Source: Candidatus Saccharimonadota bacterium (GTDB lineage Bacteria; Patescibacteriota; Saccharimonadia; Saccharimonadales; 2-12-FULL-41-12). Taken from it: 38,438 nucleotides of DNA. The stretch spans positions 1 to 38,438 of the forward strand of contig JACRNE010000017.1 of the NCBI GenBank assembly GCA_016219345.1, written 5' to 3'. Position 1 is the stretch's first letter; each line of letters starts with the position of its first letter. Below, one piece after another: positions 2,788 to 18,022 of this stretch. The notes under the pieces were generated by a model. That model saw only the letters and a list, made by a program, of their open reading frames with translations, was not told where the DNA came from and searched no databases. Both the position numbers and the translations under genes were made by a program.

Positions 2788-3090
2788 ATGGAAAAAAGCT
2801 GTAAACACACAATGAAACTTCTGGGAGATTATTGGACTCTTAGGATTATTGATAATTTGTCAGAACGAAATTCTAGATTCTGCGAACTTCAAAGAAGCCT
2901 AGATAATCTAAATCCAGTAACCCTAACCGACAGGCTCAAAAAGCTCGAAGACTCTGGACTTGTTAACAGAACGGAAGACCTAGAAGACAAGGTTTCAGTA
3001 ACCTATTCCCTGTCAACGTTAGGCAAAAAAGCAGTTCCAGTAGTAAGTTCTGTTAATAAATTTTCAAAAGATTTATCTAAAGCCCGATAG
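2788..3090 (+). CDS. HxlR-family winged-helix transcriptional regulator
   Basis: MEKSCKHTMKLLGDYWTLRIIDNLSERNSRFCELQRSLDNLNPVTLTDRLKKLEDSGLVNR; conserved N-terminal Cys. Confidence 0.93.
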   Translation: MEKSCKHTMKLLGDYWTLRIIDNLSERNSRFCELQRSLDNLNPVTLTDRLKKLEDSGLVNRTEDLEDKVSVTYSLSTLGKKAVPVVSSVNKFSKDLSKAR

Positions 3091-16140: not shown

Positions 16141-16518
16141 GTGAATATACCCTCAGATGAATTTTTTGAAGATTTGGTAAATCAAGGAATTGAAAAGATA
16201 CCTAAGCTATTTCAAGAGCATCTAAACAATGTGGCGATTGTAATAGCAGATGAGCCTACGCCAGAGCAGCGCCGTAAACTTAAGTTACGTTGTAATCAAA
16301 CACTTTTTGGACTTTATGAAGGGATACCTCTGACTAAAAGAGGTGCTGGCTACAACATGGTATTGCCTGATAAAATTACAATTTTTAAGATGCCAATAGC
16401 TCTTGCCAGCCAAAACGAAGGAGATCTAAAAGAGAAAGTTAGAAATACGGTTTGGCATGAGATAGCTCATTATTACGGACTTAATCACGAACAAATCCAC
16501 AAACTCGAACAATCCTAG
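16141..16518 (+). CDS. Zincin-like metallopeptidase family protein (PF06262-like); GTG start
   Basis: HEIAHYYGLNHEQIHKLE zinc motif near the C-terminus; ~125 aa. Confidence 0.85.
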   Translation: MNIPSDEFFEDLVNQGIEKIPKLFQEHLNNVAIVIADEPTPEQRRKLKLRCNQTLFGLYEGIPLTKRGAGYNMVLPDKITIFKMPIALASQNEGDLKEKVRNTVWHEIAHYYGLNHEQIHKLEQS

Positions 16519-16675
16519 AACCGCAACATAAAAGAATGAACAAGTAATTCTTGTATGTTGCTCTTCTGCCATTTTGAATTTTTTATCTGCGATGCGCGCT
16601 CTATGTACTTCATGTACATTTCCCTTGCTCTTCTCGATAAGAAAATCCAAACTGCCTAGAAGTTCTAGGATTGTT
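16508..16675. ncRNA. Candidate structured RNA or inverted-repeat element, strand undetermined
   Basis: 14-bp perfect inverted repeat AACAATCCTAGAAC (16508-16521) / GTTCTAGGATTGTT (16662-16675). It encloses hairpin GCAACATA..TATGTTGC (16523-16561), inner ATGTAC/GTACAT (16603-16619) and longer imperfect pairing over 16563-16662. Confidence 0.5.
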
Positions 16676-16678
16676 TAA

Positions 16679-16759
16679 GCTCGGGTGGTTCTTTTGGAGG
16701 GATCCCGTGAACGAATATCGTGGAAGTTCATGGGAAACCAAAAGAATCAGGACCCGAGC
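16679..16759. repeat. Long imperfect hairpin of about 27 bp
   Basis: GCTCGGGT/ACCCGAGC (16679-16686, 16752-16759); TTCTTTTGG/CCAAAAGAA (16689-16697, 16738-16746); TCCCGTGAAC/GTTCATGGGA (16703-16712, 16726-16735; one G-U). Confidence 0.75.
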
Positions 16760-16781
16760 ACTACGCTGGCTTGTCGTTCAT

Positions 16782-17972
16782 TTAATCTTGGTCACAGAGT
16801 GGGCAGAGGTCTTCTTCCTTGTACTCTGCAAACCAGTGTTTCGTGGCCTTAAACCAAGGTTCATAATCACGATATGCTACGAAATCCGCTGCACGACGCA
16901 ACCACCATCCTAGACGTCCAAAAAAGTAAAATCTTCCCCATACGACAGCAGCCCAATTGGGCCCGGCAGGTAGAACATAAACTGGTCTTTTGGCTTCATA
17001 TGGAATCGGGTAGTCATCGTTTGCAAGTCTGATTATATTTTCGGCAATATAACGACCATCATACAGCGCTGTCTGAGCCAATCCACTGTAGGGTGTGTCT
17101 GCGTTATCACCTATTACATAAATCCCTCTTTCAGCCTGCAAAAATTGGTCAACTCGGACTTTGCGATTTCCGGATATTTGAAAACCATTATTCGTAAAAA
17201 ATTCATTATTAGATGTGCCGGCCGTCCAAATGACTGTATGGCTTCTGATAGGTTTGTCATTGACCATCAGCTCATCATCGCTTAAAGATTTGACCGCACT
17301 ATTAAGATATATTTTTACGCCTAATTTTCTCAGATTCCGCGACACTCTACTGGATACTATTTTTGGCATTATTGGCAGAAGTCTAGGCGAAGCCTCTACT
17401 AAATCAACATGCACGCTAGCTTTACTTACACCGTGTTGGCTGCAAACTTTTTTCACATACTGCCCGAGCACACCGGCCAGCTCAACACCTGAGGGACCAC
17501 CGCCCACAACCACATAATTAAGATCAGGATGTTTAGTATTAATTATATGCTTATGAATATGTTTTTTAAGCCTTTCCGCCTCCGTATTGGTCTTTATGCC
17601 AAAAGCTAATTTCTCAAGCCCAGGTATGCCAAAATAGTTGGTCTTCATTCCCAGGGCGAAAACTAAAACATCATACTCATATTTTTCGCCAGATTCTGTT
17701 AAAATGAATTTCTTTTCTCTATCAATAGATTTCGCAGAATCAATAGCTACCTTAACAGAAGGATAATCCTCAAATATATCTTTTATCGGTATACTCGTGG
17801 CCTCGCGACTACCCCCGGTAGCCGTGTGATACAACGAGGGATAATATCTAAATGTTGGTTTATGCGTTAGTACTGTAATAGAAAATCGTGAATCATGACT
17901 CAGCTCTAGAGCGGTCTTGATTCCACCAAATCCCCCGCCGACTATTAAAGCCTTGAATTTTGTCTTTGACAT
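16782..17972 (-). CDS. ndh: Type II NADH dehydrogenase (NDH-2), FAD-dependent; start likely 17972 (MSKTKFKALIVGGGFGG)
   Basis: ALIVGGGFGGIKTALEL, VVVGGGPSGVELAGVL, VIWTAGTSNN, GIYVIGDNADTPYSGLAQTALYDGRYIAENI; C-terminal CPLC. Confidence 0.93.
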   Translation of the reverse strand: MSKTKFKALIVGGGFGGIKTALELSHDSRFSITVLTHKPTFRYYPSLYHTATGGSREATSIPIKDIFEDYPSVKVAIDSAKSIDREKKFILTESGEKYEYDVLVFALGMKTNYFGIPGLEKLAFGIKTNTEAERLKKHIHKHIINTKHPDLNYVVVGGGPSGVELAGVLGQYVKKVCSQHGVSKASVHVDLVEASPRLLPIMPKIVSSRVSRNLRKLGVKIYLNSAVKSLSDDELMVNDKPIRSHTVIWTAGTSNNEFFTNNGFQISGNRKVRVDQFLQAERGIYVIGDNADTPYSGLAQTALYDGRYIAENIIRLANDDYPIPYEAKRPVYVLPAGPNWAAVVWGRFYFFGRLGWWLRRAADFVAYRDYEPWFKATKHWFAEYKEEDLCPLCDQD

Positions 17973-17986
17973 TATGAGCATAAGTT

Positions 17987-18022
17987 TACCATAAGCAAGC
18001 CTCAAGCAAGCCTCTTATGGTA
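17987..18022. repeat. Inverted repeat TACCATAAG/CTTATGGTA around a tandem 11-bp duplication (AAGCAAGCCTC x2)
   Basis: 9-bp perfect arms 17987-17995 and 18014-18022; tandem copies 17993-18003 and 18004-18014. Confidence 0.85.

Follow-up and report, generated by a model that had tools for sequence, protein, structure and literature searches.

The spacer and its genes

The DNA considered here, which we call the window, is a stretch of 38,438 nucleotides from a Candidatus Saccharimonadota bacterium (assembly GCA_016219345.1, contig JACRNE010000017.1), and our subject is the spacer between two of its convergent genes. A metallopeptidase-like gene (16141..16518, + strand) faces a NADH dehydrogenase-like gene (16782..18005, - strand), and we will argue that the sequence between them probably consists of two different non-autonomous, repeated mobile palindromes, A and B, lying side by side. 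The original prediction, made from the letters of the window, had seen a single elaborately folded region of about 265 bp, either a novel structured RNA or a mobile inverted-repeat element. The large spacer is indeed there, measuring 263 bp from stop to stop, and it stands out as claimed, the remaining convergent pairs in the window having ends that abut or overlap (1386/1383, 8974/8975, 31904/31894 and 37576/37573). Its minimum free energy is -100 kcal/mol on the + strand (z -7.2) and -94 kcal/mol on the - strand (z -6.1), and none of the 200 shuffles is as low for either strand, so the fold is far more stable than shuffled controls. A search of 4227 Rfam families at gathering and lax thresholds gave no match for the window, and 17 further B loci likewise gave none at their elements; ARAGORN found no tRNA or tmRNA in the spacer. 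What did not hold up is the treatment of the spacer as one unit. A and B are unrelated and have separate distributions, A being carried by just 2 of the 11 B-positive genomes of the order.

The same junction in close relatives lacks the folded sequence. In a genome of the same genus (G001) the metallopeptidase has the ending KLER*, with the dehydrogenase stop 5 bp on; in one of the same family (G005) the ending is KLEN* and the stops of both genes overlap. The window protein ends KLEQS*, and its final residues and stop (QS*) lie in the left arm of A, which supplies them. Because the junction is short or overlapping in both relatives, the block from 16508 to ~16775 is extra in the window, and the simplest reading of these sequences is that it would be an insertion.

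Two palindromic elements

Element A is a ~168-bp palindromic repeat (16508..16675, - strand with respect to its model), supported by its sequence, its folds, its absence in relatives, covariance model R2 and covariation. Its ends are a perfect 14-bp inverted repeat, just as predicted: the left arm (16508..16521, + strand; from sequence and the relatives' junction) contains the metallopeptidase stop, and the right arm (16662..16675, + strand) is read from sequence. The inner hairpin and longer imperfect stem proposed between these arms both fold. The former is a side hairpin (16523..16561, - strand), seen in the folds and variable in sequence among copies, and the latter is the core (16561..16657, - strand), a long stem with conserved internal loops defined by model matches and covariation. 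The predicted shape is three-way, with core and side hairpin enclosed by the inverted repeat; full copies combine the core with a variable outer stem, and a side hairpin, also variable, is often present too. A was initially found as weak DNA matches in G001 and G019, genomes of the same order, and these two sequences and the window's seeded covariance model R2. By this model the window's own genome has six copies of A, and 84 of the order's 393 genomes carry it. Across 35 core sequences, in an alignment fitted to the structure, 94.9% of cells are paired and the covariation score is 0.725 vs 0.202 (0/500 shuffles). A was rejected as a small gene, with stops in the frames of many copies and frames that differ among copies.

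Element B, a ~84-bp palindromic repeat (16677..16761, + strand), follows directly, and 21 nt separate it from the dehydrogenase stop. It contains the separate second hairpin of ~81 nt that had been predicted, which lies at 16679-16759. Copies, folds and covariation define B as three stems with two conserved internal loops, CGGGTGR / CAGGACCCG and GGAGGG / GGA. In ten copies from the window's own genome (G000) and G005, the order is outer stem, CGGGTGR, stem 2, GGAGGG/GGAAGG, stem 3, stem 2', CAGGACCCG and outer stem', with stem 3 closed by the 13-nt loop GAATATCGTGGAA, which is also the loop of the copy in the window. When the own assembly (0.73 Mb, 36 contigs, 87% complete) was searched with DNA, only this right-hand part of the spacer was repeated at high identity, in three further copies (80-96%), all of them also intergenic. 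Both halves of the spacer are thus multi-copy within one genome, B with four copies and A with six.

The stems of B have changed extensively while remaining paired. In the ten copies, 18 of 29 pairs are changed on both sides and 92% of cells pair, and 0 of 500 shuffles match the pairing or the covariation. A 101-sequence alignment, fitted to the structure and including a few reverse-strand self-matches, gives a covariation of 0.577 vs 0.137 shuffled and at most 0.084 with partners slid. Covariation among relatives, proposed as a check on the original prediction, is therefore present in both elements, and more strongly in the A core than in B. Across the wider B family, both the 13-nt loop and the stems are highly variable, and what stays constant is the pair of internal loops; the long, near-perfect arms differ wholly between copies in one genome, yet remain complementary.

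Distribution and placement

B is patchy: 11 of the order's 393 genomes carry it, as do 18 of the 259 in a phylum-wide sample. An internal-loop pattern scan of GTDB genomes, in which a few matches are expected by chance, returned at least 118 B stretches, mostly from Saccharibacteria. Further matches come from Gottesmanbacteria, Microgenomates, Omnitrophota, Deltaproteobacteria, Melainabacteria, Acidimicrobiales, Solirubrobacterales, rumen Bacillota and others, with Actinomycetota among the phyla. Among the matches listed, 111 of 124 passed a strict fold test; the other 13 were set aside, and one or two of them may be real. A phage origin was rejected: the spacer has no match in the phage collection, and the two pattern matches on viral contigs do not fold as B. 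In G005, A and B adjoin (L254, C1:536147-536242 and 536333-536417) oriented to one another as they are in the window, but between different flanking genes.

Among the first 23 copies of B, the distance to a stop codon is in many cases 0-38 nt, and the motif can be on the strand of the adjacent gene or on the opposite one. A divergent gene pair flanks at least one copy (L032), and no run of T was found after the elements. In three unrelated loci (L032, L037 and L038), a TGATATAAT-like extended -10 sequence occurs within ~15 nt on the 3' side of B.

A frame scan of the wider set placed other copies within long reading frames. By a conservative codon-usage test, 21 of 68 Saccharibacterial B pattern matches are inside coding frames. 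The in-gene count excludes L050 and L128, where the frame over the element is possibly no gene, and the analysis as a whole relies on naive open reading frame calls in draft metagenome-assembled genomes. About 35 Saccharibacterial copies are spanned by an aligned protein from another locus, within the ascertainment limit that these homologs were taken from loci in hand, and all are in frame; frame-broken pairs are confined to low-complexity, GC-rich matches outside Saccharibacteria. The host enzymes include IleRS, QueA and IscS, together with CysS, MurB, Tgt, exonuclease I (ExoI), FemAB and a P-type ATPase, the last six identified by Pfam or alignment. One copy of A is likewise in frame, in GlmS of G001. 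Against solved structures, IleRS residues 579-618 stand opposite 7 residues of the chain, in QueA nothing corresponds to residues 272-294, and a gap in IscS runs across the element segment. The CysS case is less clean, as the solved chains themselves have residues at this point. Only the QueA of L133 was seen to use the sense frame in which the TGA of GGGTGAC falls as a codon, and its copy is GGGTGGC; frame use therefore appears to fit translation.

Across the IleRS proteins of 118 genomes of one genus, the position is usually a short loop (FDIDGEHF), occupied by B in a few and by unrelated long inserts in others. Because this loop is filled with unrelated palindromic inserts in L174 (G437) and L175 (G120), more families of such palindromes probably exist. 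A single IleRS gene, L173, has three B copies (1959-2044, 2639-2726 and 2946-3034), all in frame. Four QueA loci (L096, L133, L141 and L155) have B or a B-like insert at one shared site in different reading frames; either the site is a hotspot or a single old insert has drifted in frame. In the IscS of two genomes (L070 and L165), B sits at the same site with paired stem changes and altered residues, so that pairing has been kept at the expense of the peptide. These paired changes could result from selection acting on the fold or from palindrome repair by template switching; the constancy of the internal loops speaks for recognition or selection.

Candidate mobilisers

RAYT-like Y1 transposases of ~210 aa, identified by a weak Y1_Tnp match, occur in 82 of 393 genomes of the order. 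They are enriched in genomes with A (35/84 vs 47/309 of the others; p 6e-7, uncorrected for ancestry). A copy of A is near 2 of the 14 RAYT loci examined, these two having been picked for that reason. No Y1_Tnp was found in G005 or in G000, the latter 87% complete. RAYT was rejected as the mobiliser of B, with Y1/RAYT in just 1 of 11 B genomes and no association. A reverse transcriptase is present in 7 of the 11 B-positive genomes of the order and absent from G000, G041, G102 and G168.

Interpretation and alternatives

Our favoured explanation, that A and B are two non-autonomous mobile palindromes, draws on their multiple copies, the empty junction in relatives, the patchy distribution, the use of both orientations, the covarying stems with fixed loops and the in-frame copies. 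The mobile half of the original prediction is thus supported. We envisage that a trans-acting machinery would recognize the conserved internal loops of a folded single strand, whether DNA or RNA, and would move that strand with little target specificity. Insertions would survive beside stop codons, or where the frame stays open in a tolerant loop of the protein, and the host gene would therefore be lengthened, not destroyed. At the present locus, A would have inserted at the metallopeptidase stop and provided its replacement, and B would have inserted next to A.

Several observations weigh against this scenario. No movement has been directly observed, and no mobilising enzyme was identified, RAYT not being linked with B and the reverse transcriptase not being universal in B-positive genomes. 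Target-site duplications and exact boundaries could not be defined at IleRS, QueA, Tgt or the other sites examined. The insertion sites in IscS, QueA and IleRS are common to several genomes and may be old, which makes present activity uncertain. The stems also covary beyond what simple copying suggests.

A rival view is that A and B are functional structured RNAs (3'-untranslated-region stabilisers, bidirectional terminators, processing sites or small RNAs) selected for an effect on the transcript. Strong covariation with fixed internal loops, the many intergenic copies close to stop codons and the pairing retained in IscS in spite of changed residues all agree with it. However, the elements take either orientation with respect to the neighbouring gene and no T run follows; copies lie between divergent genes or in coding sequence; and the host genes are unrelated, the distribution is patchy and the junction of close relatives does without the elements. 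We regard this explanation as improbable. The predicted novel structured RNA survives only in part: the structure is conserved, covarying and without an Rfam match, and an ordinary cis-regulatory RNA or small RNA gene is disfavoured because of the mixed orientation, the patchy distribution and the in-frame insertion in enzymes.

It is very unlikely that the intragenic copies are removed or skipped, by RNA splicing or ribosome bypassing, with the fold as signal and the intergenic copies as by-products. Stable, conserved folds within essential enzymes, and pairing that persists while residues change, would suit such a process, but the intragenic copies with spanning homologs are all in frame and stop-free, and the TGA-containing sense frame was seen in use only where it reads TGG, properties that a segment cut out or passed over would not need. 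Template-switch repair is known for quasi-palindromes, and we give equally little credence to the idea that it keeps A and B perfect without selection, as mere mutational palindromes: long near-perfect arms that differ fully between copies of one genome and still match would fit it, but the same repair would remove the mismatched internal loops as well, the most conserved part across distant phyla, and it leaves the scattered homologous copies unexplained.

Comparison with known elements

Of the systems we compared, A and B behave most like the palindromic elements of Rickettsia and Wolbachia (RPE and WPE), ~100-150-bp palindromic repeats found between genes and in frame in conserved enzymes (PMC10969869, PMC3767692). 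Orthologs of their hosts often have inserts at the same locus, and QueA, the tRNA ribosyltransferase-isomerase, is among these hosts (PMC10969869, PMC3767692). A and B are also small interspersed palindromes (~80-170 bp), intergenic and in frame in unrelated conserved genes, and QueA is a host of B as well. They differ in residing in Saccharibacteria, other Patescibacteria and several more phyla, in conserving internal-loop sequence and fold and not one peptide, and in using several reading frames and both orientations. The analogy is one of behaviour, and the named Rickettsia families were compared by description. A stronger claim would be that A and B are new, horizontally spreading structured elements distinct from RPEs, in which a folded strand is mobilised via its internal loops, crosses phyla (Patescibacteria, Actinomycetota and others) and has its pairing selected even in coding sequence; we consider this possible and rather doubtful.

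Miniature inverted-repeat transposable elements (MITEs) and repetitive extragenic palindromes (REP/BIME) resemble A and B in being non-autonomous interspersed palindromes, many of them beside stops. In the window A has a terminal inverted repeat of 14 bp, and target duplications are not definable. Unlike REP sequences with their RAYTs, B lacks the Y1/RAYT association that A shows before correction for ancestry, and no target duplication or REP tetranucleotide was identified for either element. PARCELs are palindromic coding sequences scattered over distant microbes, as A and B are, but occur as tandem 25-residue repeats in surface proteins (PMC2996958), whereas copies of A and B mostly occur singly, between genes or within enzymes. 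Searches of the open-access literature for palindromic elements in Saccharibacteria, the candidate phyla radiation (CPR) and Patescibacteria found no description of A or B, whose sequences, structures and hosts are unlike those of any element located there.

Implications

In-frame palindromic elements have so far been known mainly from Rickettsia and Wolbachia. The same behaviour is now seen in the very small genomes of Patescibacteria, with many divergent copies, strong covariation and relatives in other phyla, and some of the enzymes invaded, such as QueA, are the same as those in RPE hosts. Because such elements occur in Patescibacteria, the questions raised by RPEs, namely what moves them, which part is recognised and how proteins tolerate them, become open to comparative tests. 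Our results also advise caution in reading Saccharibacterial genomes, where in-frame inserts in enzymes may be repeats and not functional domains, and structured intergenic regions may be repeats and not riboswitches.
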